57,543 bases of DNA from Thauera phenolivorans (GTDB lineage: Bacteria > Pseudomonadota > Gammaproteobacteria > Burkholderiales > Rhodocyclaceae). Within the stretch, counting starts at the first letter, position 1, and the number at the start of each line of letters is the position of its first letter. The notes under the pieces are model-generated. The model saw nothing but the letters and a program-made list of their open reading frames with translations. It had not been told where the DNA came from and did not search any database. The DNA is taken from contig NZ_MBFM01000001.1 of NCBI RefSeq assembly GCF_001696715.1, forward strand, positions 533,809-591,351. Direction: 5' to 3'. Both the position numbers and the translations under genes were made by a program. Of the stretch, positions 34,626-41,416 are shown one piece after another.

Positions 34626-37073
34626 GTGCGCCTACCTTTTAGGCATTCTTCGATCCGCGTCCGCCTGCTGCTGGCAAGCACGGTCGTCCAGGTGGTGTTG
34701 CTGACCCTGCTGCTCGCCAACAGCGTGCGGCTGATGAACAATGCCGCCTCGGCCAGCTTCGACACCCTCGTCGTGCAGAACGCCAGCATGCTGCACGCGA
34801 TGGCGGTCGCCTATGGCGACCAGCAGCGCTATGGCGAGCTTCAGGACGTCCTCGGCGAACTGCTGGCGGACTCGGGCGAGGGGCTGATCTATGTGCGCGT
34901 GGTGAGCCCGGACGATCGCCTGCTGGTCAGCGCCGGCCTGCCCGAAATGCGCCAGCTGCCGCCGCCCACCGGCGAACTGACCGACTCGCTCGACGGCGTG
35001 CTGGGCAAGCCGCTGATCCATGTGCGCAAACCGCTGCTGCTGCCGCGCAACGAAGTCGGCTTCCTCCAGTTCGGGGTCGCGGTCTCGGTGCTCGCCGCCG
35101 CCCGCCAGGCGATCGTCGAGCAGGGCACGATCATCGCGCTCTCCGAGATCGCGCTCACCGCGCTGCTGCTGTCGGTGATCGGCTACCTGCTCACCCACAA
35201 CCTCGGCCGTCTGCTCGCCGGCAGCAAGGCGATCGCCGAGGGCCACCTCGATCACCGCCTGCCGGCCGAGGGCGAGGACGAGCTCGCGGTGCTCGCCCGC
35301 CACTTCAACATCATGGCCTCCAACCTGCAGCAGCGCATCACCGAACTGCAGCACACGGCCTCCAGGCTGAGCGCGAGCGAGGAGCGCTATGCGCTCGCGA
35401 TCGGCGGCGCCAACGACGGCCTGTGGGACTGGGACATCGAGGGCGGCAGCGCCTACTATTCGGATCGCTATTGCGAAATCCTCGGGCTCGCGCCCGGCAG
35501 CCTGCCGTCGCGTCCGGACGTGATCTTCGCCTACATGCACCCGGACGACATCGAGAACTACCGCGATCGCATGATCGCCCACCTCAAGGGCGAGAGTGCG
35601 CAGTTCATGGTCGAGCACCGCGTGCGCCTGCCCGACCACCGCTATCGCTGGGTGCTGACGCGCGGCGTCGCTCGCCGCAACGAGCGATCGCGCGCAGTGC
35701 GGATGGCGGGTTCGATCGGCGATGTGGACCTGCGCAAGCGGGCCGAGCAACAGCTGCTGCACGACGCCCTGCACGACAGCCTCACCGGCCTGCCCAACCG
35801 CGCGATGTTCCTCGAACACGCGCTGCGCGCGATCGGGCAGCAGCGCCGCGACCGCAGGTATCGCTTCGCCGTGCTGGCGATCAACATCGAACGCTTCAGC
35901 CTGGTCAACGACAGCTACGGCCACGCGGTGGGCGACGAACTGCTGCGCCGGGTGGCCCGCCACATCAGCAACTCGATGCGCGAGGGCGACGTCGCCGCAC
36001 GCGTCGGCGGCGACCAGTTCGCCCTGCTGCTGAACGGCATCGGCGATTCGACCGACGCGCTGCGCATCGCCGAGTCCCTCGTCGAGCTGCCGGGGATCGA
36101 CATCGCCGGCGCCGGCTGCAGCTTCGACCTCCACTGCCGCATCGGCGTCGTCGTCAGCGACCCGCAGCGCGAGGATCCGGAATCGCTGCTGCGCGATGCG
36201 GACAACGCCCTGCACCGCGCGCGTCGAAGCTCGACCAGCGCGATCGAGTTCTTCCACGATTCGATGCACACCCAGGCGGTGCGTACGCTGCAGCTCGAGG
36301 CCGACCTGCGCGAGGCGCTCCGTACCCGCAGCCTGACCGTCCACTACCAGGCGATCGTCGCCCTCGCCGATGGCCAGCCGACCAGTTTCGAGGCCCTGGT
36401 CCGCTGGCCGCACCCGGTGCACGGCATGATGCCGCCGAGCGAGTTCGTCCCGCTGGCCGAGACCCTCGACCTGATCCACGAGCTCGGCATGCAGGTGCTG
36501 GAGACCGCCTGCACCGACATCCGCGAACACCTCAGCCTTCATCCCGCAGCGCCGGCGCTGCGGGTCGGCGTCAATCTGTCCGCCCGCCAGCTCGCCCGGC
36601 CGCGCCTCGCCGAGGAGCTGCTGGAGGTGATCGACCGCAACAAGGTCTCGCGCAAGTGCCTGCGCTTCGAGGTGACCGAAAGCCTGCTCACGCAGCCCGA
36701 CGGCCCCGCCTCGCGTACGCTGCAGGCGCTGCGCAGCGCCGGCTGCAGCGTACTGATCGACGACTTCGGCACCGGCTACTCGACCCTGAGCTATCTCCAC
36801 ACCATCCCCTGCGACGTGGTCAAGCTCGACGGCTCCTTCGTCCATTCCATCACCGAGGATCCGCGCCTGCGCGCCATCGTCCGCCGCAGCATCCAGCTCG
36901 CCCACGATCTGGGGATGACGGTGGTGGCGGAGTGCATCGAGACCGAAGCGCAACACCGGATCCTTCGCGAGGTCGGCTGCGACTACGGCCAGGGATACCT
37001 GTTCGCCCGCCCCATGCCGCGCGAGAGAGCGTGGAGTCGGCTCCAAACCAAGGTCACGGAAGTCCATTCATGA
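34626..37073 (+). CDS. Membrane HAMP-PAS-GGDEF-EAL cyclic-di-GMP protein
   Basis: An 815-residue inner-membrane protein. Order: helix 1 (about 13-34), periplasmic sensor (35-165), helix 2 (168-190), HAMP (191-243), PAS (255-370), GGDEF (375-540), EAL (555-805). The GGDEF site reads GGDQF (461-465), and the metal residues of the usual D-x-D-R-F are N420 and E422, so cyclase activity is unlikely. The EAL half keeps E589-A-L, VNLSARQL, FEVTES, IDDFGTGYS, VKLDGSF, AECIETE and YGQGYLF, all needed for phosphodiesterase activity. GTG at 34626 has an AGGGAGA upstream. Its stop overlaps the porin ATG. Confidence 0.92.
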   Translation: MRLPFRHSSIRVRLLLASTVVQVVLLTLLLANSVRLMNNAASASFDTLVVQNASMLHAMAVAYGDQQRYGELQDVLGELLADSGEGLIYVRVVSPDDRLLVSAGLPEMRQLPPPTGELTDSLDGVLGKPLIHVRKPLLLPRNEVGFLQFGVAVSVLAAARQAIVEQGTIIALSEIALTALLLSVIGYLLTHNLGRLLAGSKAIAEGHLDHRLPAEGEDELAVLARHFNIMASNLQQRITELQHTASRLSASEERYALAIGGANDGLWDWDIEGGSAYYSDRYCEILGLAPGSLPSRPDVIFAYMHPDDIENYRDRMIAHLKGESAQFMVEHRVRLPDHRYRWVLTRGVARRNERSRAVRMAGSIGDVDLRKRAEQQLLHDALHDSLTGLPNRAMFLEHALRAIGQQRRDRRYRFAVLAINIERFSLVNDSYGHAVGDELLRRVARHISNSMREGDVAARVGGDQFALLLNGIGDSTDALRIAESLVELPGIDIAGAGCSFDLHCRIGVVVSDPQREDPESLLRDADNALHRARRSSTSAIEFFHDSMHTQAVRTLQLEADLREALRTRSLTVHYQAIVALADGQPTSFEALVRWPHPVHGMMPPSEFVPLAETLDLIHELGMQVLETACTDIREHLSLHPAAPALRVGVNLSARQLARPRLAEELLEVIDRNKVSRKCLRFEVTESLLTQPDGPASRTLQALRSAGCSVLIDDFGTGYSTLSYLHTIPCDVVKLDGSFVHSITEDPRLRAIVRRSIQLAHDLGMTVVAECIETEAQHRILREVGCDYGQGYLFARPMPRERAWSRLQTKVTEVHS

Positions 37074-38263
37074 AGACGTTACTGCTCGCGCTGATGAGCC
37101 TCTGGGCGCTCGAGGTCCACGCAACGCAGTCCGACATGCTCGACCTGTCCGGCTTCGCCACCCTCGGCGTGGCGGTCACCGATCGCAACGACACCCGTTT
37201 CAGCCGCGTCGGCTTCGATCACCCCGGCGATCAGAATCCCGACTTCGGTCCCGACTCGGTGCTCGGCATCCAGGCAAACTGGCGCTTCTCGCCGCAGGCG
37301 GCCGCGGTGCTGCAGGTCCTGAGTCGCGAGAGCCCGCGCGGCAGCTACATGCCGCGCCCGACGCTCGCATTCTTCAGCTACCAGCTCGATCCGGCACTGA
37401 CCGTTCGGCTCGGACGGATGCGCGGGCCCTTCTTCATGTTTTCGGACACGATCGACATCAACTACGCGCAACCCTGGATTCGGTCGCCGATCGAGGTCTA
37501 CGGCCTCAACCCCTACGTCGATCTGGACGGCGTCGATCTGCTCTACCGGACTCGCATCCGGAACGTCGACATCGAAGTTCATCCCTACTTCGGCAGCAGC
37601 CGGATCGACGTCTTCGAGGACGGCGAAAGCCGCCTGAAAGGGATCATCGGCATGAACCTGGCCCTGTCGAGCGGCGATCTGTCGATTCACGCGGGCTACA
37701 GCAGCGCCGACCAGAAGCTGCAGTGGAGTGACCCGCTCCACGACTGGCTCCAGGGCGCGCTGAGACGCACGGAAGGCGGGGTGCCGTTTGCCGAGCAGAT
37801 GTCCGGCAGCGACGGCCGTGCCCGCTTCGCATCCGCCGGCTTCCAGTGGGATAACGGGCGCTGGCTCCTGATCGGCGAATATGCGCGGCGCAAGGTTTCG
37901 CAAAATGCCAACAGCGCCCACGGCTGGTACCTGACGGCCGGGCGTCGTTTCGGCACGGTCATCCCGTACCTGACGTACGCGCGCCAGATTCAGGATGAAG
38001 CGATCGTGGACATCCCCCCCGCGTCCGAACTCAGCGCGGCCGTCGAATACTTCAACGCTTCGCGCAATCTCGCCCAACGGAGCGTGACGGCCGGGGTTCG
38101 CTGGGATTTCGCGGACAACGCAGCACTCAAGGCCGAGCTCATGCGGGCAGAGACCGCCGACGGCGCCAGCGGCTCATTCTACTCTTTCGACACTTCCACT
38201 TCAGCCCTCGTCCGCGGGCGCACCGTGAACGTGCTGAGCGTATCGATCGATGTCACCTTCTGA
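37070..38263 (+). CDS. Outer-membrane beta-barrel (porin-like) protein
   Basis: A 397-residue secreted protein with signal peptide MKTLLLALMSLWALEVHA and cleavage near residue 18. The mature part has many alternating-hydrophobicity strands (ANWRFSPQAAAVLQVLSRES, LTVRLGRMRGPFFMFSD, LSIHAGYSSADQ, WLLIGEYARRKVS) and a C-terminal Phe (VSIDVTF), the outer-membrane insertion signal. It has no recognisable TonB plug. Translationally coupled to the EAL protein before it (ATGA) and overlapping the next gene by 14 bases, so it is part of one functional cassette. Confidence 0.85.
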   Translation: MKTLLLALMSLWALEVHATQSDMLDLSGFATLGVAVTDRNDTRFSRVGFDHPGDQNPDFGPDSVLGIQANWRFSPQAAAVLQVLSRESPRGSYMPRPTLAFFSYQLDPALTVRLGRMRGPFFMFSDTIDINYAQPWIRSPIEVYGLNPYVDLDGVDLLYRTRIRNVDIEVHPYFGSSRIDVFEDGESRLKGIIGMNLALSSGDLSIHAGYSSADQKLQWSDPLHDWLQGALRRTEGGVPFAEQMSGSDGRARFASAGFQWDNGRWLLIGEYARRKVSQNANSAHGWYLTAGRRFGTVIPYLTYARQIQDEAIVDIPPASELSAAVEYFNASRNLAQRSVTAGVRWDFADNAALKAELMRAETADGASGSFYSFDTSTSALVRGRTVNVLSVSIDVTF

Positions 38264-38693
38264 GCAAAATCCGGCGTCCTGGCTGCGACTGCTGGTGCTC
38301 GCCGCACTGATGGCGGGGGCACTGCCGGTGAACGCCCAGGTGGTGATGGTGACCGCCGCCGCAGGCCCGGTGGAGACCCTGAGCCGGAGCGAAGCCGAGC
38401 AGCTCTATCTCGGACGGCGGACGACCCTCGACAATGGTCGGGCGGTGAGTCTGCTCGATCTTCCCATCGGCGCCGTGCGCAATGCGTTCTACCAGCAACT
38501 CACCGGAAAGAACCCCATTCAGATTCGCGCCTACTGGTCGCGCCAGGTCTTCACCGGCCGCGCGCTGCCGCCGCGCGAGGCGCGCGGCATCGAGGAAGCG
38601 CGCGAGATCCTCGTGGCCGAACCGAACACCATCGGCTATCTGCCCGAAGCCGAGATCGACTCGCGCCTGCGCATCCTGCTTCGCCTCCCTTGA
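38250..38693 (+). CDS. Small periplasmic phosphate-binding-like (PBP) protein
   Basis: A 147-residue protein with signal peptide (LRLLVLAALMAGALPVNAQ, cleavage near residue 29). The mature part, VVMVTAAAGPVETLSRSEAEQLYLGRRTTLDNGRAVSLLDLP, resembles one lobe of PstS-like periplasmic binding proteins and ends with EPNTIGYLPEAEIDSRLRIL. At about 118 mature residues it is far too short to be a normal two-lobed transport protein, and no permease is nearby. It probably acts as a ligand or signal partner for the membrane c-di-GMP protein or the barrel. Confidence 0.78.
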   Translation: MSPSEQNPASWLRLLVLAALMAGALPVNAQVVMVTAAAGPVETLSRSEAEQLYLGRRTTLDNGRAVSLLDLPIGAVRNAFYQQLTGKNPIQIRAYWSRQVFTGRALPPREARGIEEAREILVAEPNTIGYLPEAEIDSRLRILLRLP

Positions 38694-38715: not shown

Positions 38716-38757
38716 TTGACCTCGGTCTGCCTCGGTGTTGTAATGCGAATCGTTCTT
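38716..38757 (+). promoter_or_regulatory. hemP promoter with overlapping Fur box
   Basis: TTGACC (38716-38721), a 17-base spacer, and TGTAAT (38739-38744) form a near-consensus promoter. The 19 bases 38739-38757 match 13 of 19 positions of the classical Fur box (core TAATGCGAATCGTT) and cover the -10. Iron-bound Fur would therefore block the promoter of hemP-bfd-tonB-exbB-exbD. Confidence 0.78.
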
Positions 38758-38767
38758 GTTCCTAGTG

Positions 38768-38974
38768 ATGATTTCCGTGACGACTCCGCCCCACCGCGCC
38801 GAGCCCGGCGGCAGCGCAGCGCATGCCACCGAAAGCGAGCCACGGCCCACACTCGGAACGGCGATCCCGAGCGCGATGCTGCTCGGCGGCAGGGATACGG
38901 TCGCCATCGAACATCGCGGAGTCATCTATGTCCTGCGCGCGACCCGCGCCGGGAAATTGATCCTGACCAAATGA
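38768..38974 (+). CDS. hemP: Hemin uptake protein HemP
   Basis: A 68-residue HemP family protein. The diagnostic C-terminal part is SAMLLGGRDTVAIEHRGVIYVLRATRAGKLILTK, ending at the stop. HemP is a short, iron-repressed protein that in other betaproteobacteria is needed for hemin utilisation, acting through an unresolved regulatory mechanism. The ATG at 38768 is one of several closely spaced in-frame starts (TTG 38756, GTG 38765, GTG 38777) and cannot be distinguished from the others by sequence. The Fur box ends just upstream. Confidence 0.85.
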   Translation: MISVTTPPHRAEPGGSAAHATESEPRPTLGTAIPSAMLLGGRDTVAIEHRGVIYVLRATRAGKLILTK

Positions 38975-39023
38975 CGGCGGCCCTCGAGGCCGCAGAATAC
39001 GAATCCAGTTTCGAGGGCGAAAC

Positions 39024-39260
39024 ATGTACGTTTGCGTCTGCAACGCGATAACCGAACGCCACATCGGCCAAGCCGTCGACGAAGGCATGTGCAGTCTGCG
39101 CGAGCTGCGCGAGCAGCTCGGGGTCGGTGCCGAATGCGGCCGTTGCGCCCGCCATGCGCGGGAGTGCATGCACGCCGCCCTCGGGGGCGGCAGCTCGCTT
39201 GCCCCTGCCGCGGCGGCGGTCGGCCTGTGCGCGGCTGTGCCGGCGATGGAGGCCGCGTGA
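39024..39260 (+). CDS. bfd: Bacterioferritin-associated ferredoxin Bfd
   Basis: A 78-residue [2Fe-2S] protein that reduces bacterioferritin iron and releases it into the cytoplasm. The four ligands are Cys4, Cys6, Cys38 and Cys41 (MYVCVCN and ECGRCARH), with the family pattern ITERHIGQAVDEGMCSLRELREQLG between them. An Ala/Gly-rich tail follows. Position after hemP and before tonB suggests induction under iron starvation, when stored iron is mobilised. Confidence 0.92.
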   Translation: MYVCVCNAITERHIGQAVDEGMCSLRELREQLGVGAECGRCARHARECMHAALGGGSSLAPAAAAVGLCAAVPAMEAA

Positions 39261-39450
39261 TCGAGTCGCCCTGGTCCGCCCCCGGGATCGTCCGCACCGC
39301 CTCGCCTGCGGGGCGTGGCCTGCGGCCGCGCGCGGGCGCCACGAGATGAGACCCGCGTTGCAGCACGTTCGGTTCATTCCATCCGGCAGCGTAAGCCTGC
39401 CTGGCTCGGCAGTGCTTCGACCGGCGCCGCGCGCCGACGCCAGCAGTCCG

Positions 39451-40221
39451 ATGCGCCTCACCCCGGCGCGTGCGGGCCTCGGCCTGCTGGTCCTGGCCGC
39501 CCATCTGGGCGGCTTCGCAGCGCTCGCCCAACTCGCGCGACAGACGGAGAGGCCGCCCCAGGTGGTGCCGATCCAGGTCGCATTGGTACAGGCACCGGAG
39601 CCGCAGCTCGCGGCAGGCGCGCCGGAAACCCCCGCCCCCCTGCCGGCGGCGCAGCCGCCCGAACCGCCGAAGCCTGCGCCGCCGAAGCCCGCGCCGCCGA
39701 AGCCTGCGCCGCCGAAGCCCGCCCCGCCGAAGCCCGCGCCGCCGAAGCCCGCGCCGCCGAAGCCCGCGCCGCCCAAACCGGCGCCCGCCGATCCCGCGCC
39801 GCCCGCTCCAGCCGTCCAGCCCGCGCCGGCGAGTCCCGTGGGCGAGGCGCCAGTCGCACCCGCGTCGAGCACCGGTGCGCCCCCGCCCCCCACCCCGGAC
39901 CGGGTGGGCGCCTCCGCCGCGGCCGGGCCCACGGTCACCGCCGCCCGCTTCGATGCAGCCTACCTCAGGAACCCCGCGCCGGCTTATCCTCCGCTGTCCC
40001 GCCGCCTGCGCGAGGAAGGCAAGGTCCTGCTCAAGGTGCGGGTGTCCGCCGACGGCAGCGCACGCACGGTCGAGGTGGACCAGAGCTCCGGCAGCGAGCG
40101 CCTGGACCGTGCCGCACGCGAGGCGGTCGCACGCTGGCGCTTCGTCCCCGCCCGCCGCGGCGAGCAGCCGGTCGAGGCCACCGTGCTCGTGCCGATCATC
40201 TTCAAACTCCAGGGAAACTGA
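39451..40221 (+). CDS. tonB: Energy transducer TonB
   Basis: Links the ExbBD motor to outer-membrane receptors. The 256 residues have a membrane anchor at about 9-27 containing His18 (TonB anchors carry a conserved His), a rigid Pro-rich rod with eight PKPAP units, and a C-terminal domain (FDAAYLRNPAPAYPPLSRRLREEGKVLLKVRVSADGSARTVEVDQSSGSERLDRAAREAVARWRFVPA). An in-frame ATG at 39346 would add 35 residues before the anchor; the ATG at 39451 fits the family better. Confidence 0.92.
   Translation: MRLTPARAGLGLLVLAAHLGGFAALAQLARQTERPPQVVPIQVALVQAPEPQLAAGAPETPAPLPAAQPPEPPKPAPPKPAPPKPAPPKPAPPKPAPPKPAPPKPAPPKPAPADPAPPAPAVQPAPASPVGEAPVAPASSTGAPPPPTPDRVGASAAAGPTVTAARFDAAYLRNPAPAYPPLSRRLREEGKVLLKVRVSADGSARTVEVDQSSGSERLDRAAREAVARWRFVPARRGEQPVEATVLVPIIFKLQGN
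39667..39786 (+). repeat. 15-bp tandem repeat encoding PKPAP in tonB
   Basis: Eight consecutive 15-base units encode Pro-Lys-Pro-Ala-Pro. Seven are near-identical (CCGAAGCCYGCSCCG) and the eighth is diverged at DNA level (AAACCG). Unit length is a multiple of three, so gain or loss would change only rod length. Confidence 0.95.
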
Positions 40222-40223
40222 AC

Positions 40224-40985
40224 ATGAATTCCATCCAGGCCTTCGGCCTCGCCCACCTGTGGGCCCAATCGGATTTCGTCATCCGCGCGGTCGCCGCGCT
40301 CCTGCTGCTGATGTCGGTCACCAGCTGGTACCTGATCCTGCTGCGCGGGTTGCGCCAGCTGAAGGCGCGCCGCTTCGATCTGGCGGTGGAGGCGTTCTGG
40401 GCCGCGCCCAGCCTCGACCACGGCCTGCGCCGCCTGCATGAGCAGGCGCCCGATTCGCCCTTCGAGGCGCTTGCACGCCAGGGCGCGGCCGCCGCCGAAC
40501 ATGTGCGCCGCCACGAACACCAGGAAACCCTCGGTGGCCGGCTCGACGCTGACGAGGTGCTGACCCGCGCGCTGCGCAAGTCGATCGCCCTGTCGACCGC
40601 CCAGCTCGAGGCGGGCATGACGATGCTCGCCTCGATCGGCTCTACCGCCCCCTTCGTCGGCCTGTTCGGCACGGTGTGGGGCATCTATCACGCCCTGGTG
40701 AACATCAGCGCCTCCGGCATGGCGACCCTCGACAAGGTGGCAGGCCCGGTGGGAGAGGCGCTGATCATGACCGCCTTCGGCCTATTCGTCGCCATCCCGG
40801 CGGTGCTCGCCTACAACGCGGTCACCCGCGCCAACCGGGTCGAACTCTCCGAACTCGACGCCTTCGCCCACGACCTGCACGCCTGGTTCTCGACCGGCGC
40901 CCGCATCGTACCGGCGCCCGCCGTCCAGCCTGCGAACCAGGCACCGTCCGCCAAGCCCGGCCTCGCCGGCAGGGGAGCGGCGTAA
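40224..40985 (+). CDS. exbB: Biopolymer transport protein ExbB
   Basis: Inner-membrane stator of the TonB motor (MotA/TolQ/ExbB family). The 253-residue protein has three helices: about 19-41, then the conserved pair around STAPFVGLFGTVWGIYHALVNI and GPVGEALIMTAFGLFVAIPAVLAYNAV, with the conserved Thr and Gly residues of the pore. A cytoplasmic loop of ~90 residues separates helix 1 from helix 2. It starts two bases after tonB, and its stop shares an A with the exbD ATG. Confidence 0.95.
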   Translation: MNSIQAFGLAHLWAQSDFVIRAVAALLLLMSVTSWYLILLRGLRQLKARRFDLAVEAFWAAPSLDHGLRRLHEQAPDSPFEALARQGAAAAEHVRRHEHQETLGGRLDADEVLTRALRKSIALSTAQLEAGMTMLASIGSTAPFVGLFGTVWGIYHALVNISASGMATLDKVAGPVGEALIMTAFGLFVAIPAVLAYNAVTRANRVELSELDAFAHDLHAWFSTGARIVPAPAVQPANQAPSAKPGLAGRGAA

Positions 40986-41416
40986 TGGCATTCGGCGGCT
41001 TCAGCCAGGGCGACAACCGCCCGCCGCAGAGCGACATCAACATGGTGCCGCTGATCGACGTAATGCTCGTGCTGCTGATCGTGTTCATGATCACCGCGCC
41101 GCTGCTGACCCATTCGGTGAAAATCGACCTTCCGCAAGCAAGCAGCGAGCCGACCACGGAGAAGCCCGAGACGGTCACCCTCGCGCTCGATGGCAGCGGA
41201 CGACTGTTCTGGAACGACCAGCCGCTCGAGGACGCGGCCCTGCCCGAGCGGCTGGCGCGCGCCGCCGAGGCCACGCCGCAGCCGGAACTCCATCTGCGCG
41301 CCGACCGCGACACCCGTTACCAGAAGCTGGCCGAGGTGATGGCGCTCGCGCGCGAGGCCGGGATCGAGAAGATGGGCTTCATCACCGTGCCCCAGGCTTC
41401 GCCCGCCGCGCGGTAA
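40985..41416 (+). CDS. exbD: Biopolymer transport protein ExbD
   Basis: Second subunit of the TonB motor. The 143-residue protein has the signature INMVPLIDVMLVLLIVFMITAP, with the proton-carrying Asp25 in the single membrane helix, followed by a periplasmic domain. The overlap with exbB (TAATG) indicates coupled translation. The operon ends here; the convergent Fur-family gene lies 28 bases further on. Confidence 0.95.
   Translation: MAFGGFSQGDNRPPQSDINMVPLIDVMLVLLIVFMITAPLLTHSVKIDLPQASSEPTTEKPETVTLALDGSGRLFWNDQPLEDAALPERLARAAEATPQPELHLRADRDTRYQKLAEVMALAREAGIEKMGFITVPQASPAAR

Follow-up and report, generated by a model that had tools for sequence, protein, structure and literature searches.

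A three-gene cassette of Thauera phenolivorans as a possible cross-envelope input unit for c-di-GMP breakdown

We analysed a 57,543-nucleotide stretch of the Thauera phenolivorans genome (the window), in which three genes on the forward strand occupy positions 34626 to 38693:

34626..37073, + strand: gene 1, likely inner-membrane c-di-GMP phosphodiesterase (Pfam, hydrophobic segments, motif check)
34701..35165, + strand: periplasmic sensor domain with its membrane edges, inside gene 1 (profile A4, profile search)
37070..38263, + strand: gene 2, predicted 16-stranded outer-membrane barrel of the general-porin type with C-terminal Phe (model, Foldseek)
38250..38693, + strand: gene 3, secreted small PstS-like protein (mini-PBP), called SM below (model, profile)

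Gene 1 starts at a GTG after AGGGAGAG, and its open frame extends back to 34506. Genes 1 and 2 overlap by the four bases ATGA and genes 2 and 3 by 14 bases. When the first start codon was taken, the porin–SM overlap was exactly 14 bases in all 26 genus loci that contain the porin, while in six related loci outside the genus the two genes lie 3–10 bases apart with no overlap. We conclude that the constant overlap within the genus is more than chance.

The product of gene 1 is a two-transmembrane receptor with a periplasmic domain and an EAL output. Hydrophobic segments at about residues 12–30 and 146–185 enclose roughly 115–130 residues, and the order of parts is a transmembrane segment, the periplasmic sensor domain (about residues 31–165), a second transmembrane segment, and the Pfam domains HAMP, PAS_3, GGDEF and EAL. 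We judged the catalytic domains by their GGDEF and EAL motifs. The EAL signature motifs were kept in all 15 sequences compared (the window protein and 14 orthologues), and in the same 15 the GGDEF motif was degenerate (GGDQF in 14, GGDLF in one), a point absent from the initial annotation. Because the EAL motifs are kept and the GGDEF site is degenerate, gene 1 most likely encodes a c-di-GMP phosphodiesterase whose GGDEF domain is non-catalytic and probably serves only in regulation. For the periplasmic domain, Pfam gave a sub-threshold match alone (2CSK_N, E 0.0027), and a structure search found no solved relative.

Although the gene 2 protein of the window had no Pfam match of its own, Porin_4 was matched in 24 of the 46 sequences of its family, and all 46 end in Phe. 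The AlphaFold model (mean pLDDT 92) has 16 long strands, and its best PDB matches in Foldseek were general porins such as OmpT and OmpF. Gene 2 therefore resembles the general porins (OmpT, OmpF, Omp32) in its predicted 16-stranded barrel and C-terminal Phe, but differs from them in sequence, with 8–15% identity among the 50 matches listed.

SM consists of 147 amino acids, about 118 of which follow a signal peptide judged by eye. The window protein had no Pfam match at E 1, and among 50 SM sequences Pfam found PBP_like_2 in four and otherwise single weak matches to other families; PF12974 was never above its cut-off, with one of the 50 at E 0.039. The predicted model (pLDDT 93) gave a clearer result, in that its 13 best PDB matches were phosphate-binding proteins (PstS), aligned over 120–126 columns (TM 0.51–0.60 by query length), and the SM profile alone found PstS chains from E 2.9e-7. 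The PstS chains matched by the model are 241–321 residues long, and from the size of SM and the aligned range we infer that SM corresponds to one lobe of PstS. SM differs from PstS in having about half its length and no adjoining permease. It also lacks SG[TS], which we take to be the anion-binding signature of PstS, anywhere in 48 of the 50 sequences (present in two), and the SGT stretch of the genome's own PstS falls opposite a gap in a weak alignment with SM. The best SM matches in named genomes were mostly from Aromatoleum, Azoarcus and Thauera.

The immediate neighbours scanned were lgt, a malonyl-CoA decarboxylase gene, hemP and one frame without a Pfam match, and Pfam found no ABC family (permease or ATPase) among them. 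These analyses agree with the initial annotation on the parts of the cassette. Its three overlapping genes were reproduced in coordinates and in both overlaps, its intact EAL domain was borne out by the motifs, its barrel ending in Phe by the porin model and the family alignment, and its PstS-like half protein of some 118 mature residues by the PDB matches over about 120 columns; its remark that no permease is present held for the neighbours scanned. The tie to an adjacent iron island that it had raised as a possibility was not supported. Across 14 loci compared, hemP turned up after the cassette in just eight (of the other six, L050 has a short flank), and the upstream malonyl-CoA decarboxylase gene in 13. 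The iron genes adjoin the cassette but are not a fixed component of it. In the window itself, 38756–41416 holds hemP (by Pfam) followed by frames that by eye resemble TonB, ExbB and ExbD; within that stretch, Pfam gave no match in 39458–40221.

Within the genus the cassette is strongly conserved. SM was matched in 35 of 61 relatives, and a close SM was present in 28 of the 29 genus genomes; the remaining one (G027, 77% complete) has a distant SM alone. The sensor domain likewise had one match per genome in 28 of the 29 and none in G027, so that sensor domain and close SM travel together, both in 28 genomes and neither in G027. Wherever a close SM was found in the genus (28 loci), the EAL gene adjoins SM or the porin, and at 26 of these loci the porin lies between the EAL gene and SM. 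The two porin-less cassettes have SM almost directly after the EAL gene, and their genomes carry elsewhere an orphan porin of another clade (L184:6046-7320 and L185:5780-7219) with no SM within 13 kb around it. The 28 cassette porin sequences group in a single clade (support 100/99). Fourteen loci in named records, six of which appear identical to genus loci, had the EAL gene in 14 cases and the porin in 13; the six loci outside the genus with the 3–10-base gap are among them.

A mirror-tree comparison of 13 loci gave correlations of 0.80–0.91 for all pairs. SM correlated with the sensor domain at r 0.82 (partial 0.44), with the porin at r 0.81 (partial 0.43) and with the cytoplasmic part of gene 1 at r 0.81 (partial 0.37). 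SM tracks the sensor domain hardly more than it tracks the porin or the cytoplasmic part.

Of the 370 genomes sampled from the class, 115 have a relative of SM and 91 a member of the porin family; both are present in 83, SM only in 32, porin only in eight and neither in 247. These counts refer to the matches listed, leave out SM sequences beyond the listed table and porin sequences weaker than E 2.1e-23, and ignore kinship. We examined 118 SM loci outside the cassette, comprising 20 paralogue loci from relatives, 80 that mostly represent each genome's best match, and another 18 from the matches listed. In total these loci contain 128 SM copies, counted after removal of L159 and L160, two flank pieces that lack an SM target. 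Genes were detected with home-made profiles on open reading frames, and for this reason misses and some wrong frames are likely. A family porin lay within 300 bp on the same strand of 111 of the 128 copies, before SM in 74 and after it in 37. Conversely, SM lay within 700 bp of 77 of the 95 strongest porin matches listed, and three more porin matches sit in cassettes where SM is one gene away, in the order SM–EAL–porin (L074, L075), or split over two frames (L187). We found no description of a porin–SM module in our searches of openly licensed PMC papers.

Signalling genes are common beside these copies, with varied outputs. On either strand, 79 of the 128 copies had a signalling gene within 1.5 kb; it was on the same strand in 64 cases (59 of these within 200 bp) and on the other strand only in 15. 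The nearest such gene encoded a GGDEF-EAL protein (24 copies), a chemoreceptor (22), a histidine kinase (17), a GGDEF protein (15) or an EAL protein (one, L089, where SM is also overlapped by a kinase frame on its own strand). The density of signalling genes was 0.105 per kb within 3.5 kb of SM versus 0.031 per kb at 3.5–6.5 kb, a 3.4-fold difference. The remaining 49 copies had no signalling gene within 1.5 kb, and among the 48 of 81 listed neighbours of such copies that were scanned no common partner emerged beyond Sel1 repeats, the commonest family there (five of 48; alignment A6). Counted by output, the 128 copies comprise 25 with an EAL-type protein, 54 with other signalling proteins and 49 with none.

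The co-occurrence and gene order proposed as a check in the initial annotation were thus confirmed in part. The EAL gene was present at all 28 genus loci and the porin at 26, and in the wider family most copies have another output or none. Likewise, orthologues of the small protein or the barrel that usually occur without the EAL gene, named there as grounds for rejecting the idea, are what we found if orthologue is read loosely (EAL-type output at 25 of 128 copies), whereas all 28 close copies of the genus have the EAL gene beside them.

Several other arrangements were noted among the SM loci. On plasmids, a porin-size protein, SM and an EAL protein stand side by side in Caballeronia, and chemoreceptor, porin and SM occur together in Pseudoalteromonas and Pseudomonas, the latter including a chemoreceptor–porin–SM row in Pseudomonas aeruginosa (L177:1108-4333). 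An Alteromonas plasmid (L176:3902-5479) has SM and a hypothetical porin-size protein near type IV CRISPR genes. Tandem SM genes are present at L082:6003-6940 and at L115:5975-6995, the second without a family porin. An SM domain forms the C-terminal end of long proteins at L145:4631-6337, L155:5967-7697, L156:5983-7674 and L154:6240-8264; three of these four have a DnaJ domain (Pfam), and at L145 DnaJ is followed by a hydrophobic segment and a linker (by eye), with a porin gene after the long gene. By eye, the paralogous genus SM loci L052, L064, L067, L068 and L069 lie near a branched-chain/urea-type ABC operon.

Most receptors beside SM share a general layout: of the 79 signalling proteins nearest to it, 74 have a stretch of more than 60 residues between two hydrophobic segments. 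The sensor domains can be sorted into a few classes, and one class occurs with different outputs: A5 is found beside SM with GGDEF, GGDEF-EAL and kinase outputs. Of 12 strong A5 matches in the 370 genomes, nine adjoin SM and three do not, a count in which four of the nine are sequences of the profile itself and from which six weak matches are left out. A single-linkage cluster of 36 was rejected as one sensor class, having joined classes of ∼120 and ∼160 residues, and two sensor classes were kept because the alignment between chemoreceptor and non-chemoreceptor profiles was poor (probability 97, 7% identity). No relation in sequence was detected between the sensor domain of gene 1 and the sensor classes that accompany SM elsewhere.

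The best clue to the function of the cassette is the relatives of its sensor domain. We inspected 17 such relatives outside the genus (5 + 12, from two profile searches). A full binding protein of the PhnD type (PF12974) lay within 300 bp on the same strand of 13 of them, in each case above the Pfam cut-off. In comparison, only one of 101 signalling frames of the SM loci had a PF12974 neighbour (Fisher p 4.6e-13, kinship ignored), a rough control in that these frames were chosen for closeness to SM and are not random receptors. Three of the other relatives (L192, L201 and L208, the last a weak match) have neither a PF12974 protein nor a porin nearby. The fourth (L193) has a family porin and a secreted protein before a kinase, and no PF12974 neighbour; the 310-residue protein encoded between this porin and the kinase looks by eye like a binding protein, but Pfam and PDB searches gave that reading no support and it was left out of the count. 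From these neighbourhoods, the sensor class of the window appears to be served mostly by a binding protein, and because 13 of the 17 relatives stand beside one, SM would stand where a binding protein usually stands. SM, together with the porin, is the only candidate in the cassette for that place. Outside the cassette, the window-type sensor domain turned up at none of the 118 SM loci examined, and so just one lineage shows SM where a PhnD-type protein would otherwise stand.

On this basis we favor, with some confidence, the idea that the cassette is a cross-envelope input unit for c-di-GMP breakdown. The outer-membrane porin would admit or report a small solute, and single-lobe SM, docking in the periplasm on the sensor domain of the gene 1 product, would pass on a state that depends on the solute or the porin. 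The change would travel through HAMP and PAS to the EAL domain, which would then hydrolyse c-di-GMP to a greater or lesser extent. SM is taken as the periplasmic relay because its sensor class appears mostly served by a binding protein and SM is the sole candidate. As a single lobe, SM could not clamp a ligand in the way PstS does; it may form dimers, bind a ligand jointly with the sensor, or respond to the porin. The cross-envelope sensing put forward in the initial annotation is thus upheld by the company of EAL gene and SM at 28 of 28 genus loci and by the binding proteins beside 13 of 17 sensor relatives, and is weakened by the absence of the porin from two of 28 loci and by the varied outputs of the wider family.

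Three other explanations deserve consideration. The main one is that SM is a dedicated partner of the porin (an assembly factor, plug or retention factor) and that the signalling genes simply lie nearby often or make use of the solute as well. It is kept alive by the tighter pairing of SM with the porin (111 of 128 copies, against 79 of 128 with a receptor), which the genome co-occurrence counts parallel, and by the 49 copies that have no receptor close by. We nevertheless judge it unlikely, as two genus genomes keep EAL gene and SM without a local porin, their porins of another clade elsewhere having no SM near them; in the SM–EAL–porin order of L074 and L075 the porin stands apart from SM; and a periplasmic loop is likely in 74 of the 79 signalling proteins closest to SM.

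Still less probable is a solute uptake set, in which porin and binding protein feed a transporter encoded elsewhere and the phosphodiesterase only tracks transport. SM relatives are indeed labelled phosphate ABC transporter substrate-binding protein in 10 of 20 listed plasmid records, and the porin has the predicted general-porin fold, but no ABC family was found among the immediate neighbours scanned and SM, besides being small, has no SGT signature. We give equally little credence to the view that three unrelated genes stay together as part of an inherited conserved block running from lgt through malonyl-CoA decarboxylase to the cassette. Such inheritance would account for the conserved upstream decarboxylase gene (13 of 14 loci) and for the single clade of 28 cassette porins (100/99); however, like parts have been assembled separately in other orders and with other outputs, the coding overlap is constant within the genus, and the downstream genes do change.

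Returning to the cross-envelope reading, a broader version of it, toward which we lean rather less than not, is that porin and single-lobe binding protein form a portable cross-envelope input module for phosphodiesterases, cyclases, histidine kinases and chemoreceptors, in which a general-porin fold would be part of a signalling receptor and not a transporter. If SM relatives are signal relays, the common phosphate-transport label hides a family of cross-envelope sensors, which would feed c-di-GMP, chemotaxis and two-component outputs.

Known systems offer partial parallels. In the polyamine sensor NspS–MbaA of Vibrio cholerae, c-di-GMP is set through a GGDEF-EAL protein of the membrane, on which a periplasmic binding protein acts; NspS, which binds polyamines, can be open or closed, and MbaA is bifunctional (PMC8967002). 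The cassette is alike in its two-transmembrane receptor, periplasmic domain and EAL output, but its GGDEF motif is degenerate, an overlapping porin gene is present (the available text of PMC8967002 names no porin), and in place of a two-lobed binding protein it has the far smaller SM, 147 amino acids with about 120 columns of PstS. In arsenite sensing by AioX–AioS, a PhnD-like binding protein is the first component of the sensor operon (PMC5908839), and the relatives of the window's sensor domain likewise adjoin PF12974 proteins. AioS is a kinase, whereas the cassette ends in EAL, and SM is small and PstS-like with no PF12974 match above the cut-off. YfiBNR of Pseudomonas aeruginosa is a c-di-GMP unit spanning inner membrane, periplasm and outer membrane, with the Pal-like lipoprotein YfiB and the cyclase YfiN; its distant relatives vary in output, which may be GGDEF, GGDEF-EAL or a kinase (PMC3375315). 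The cassette shares this three-part layout across the envelope. In contrast to YfiBNR, SM matches PstS and not a YfiR model (there was no YfiR-family match), the outer part is a predicted 16-stranded porin instead of a Pal-like lipoprotein, and GGDQF or GGDLF with EAL points away from a diguanylate cyclase output. With its small, PstS-like SM, a porin as outer part and a likely phosphodiesterase as output, the cassette belongs to none of these three systems; by analogy, it would work like NspS–MbaA and AioX–AioS.
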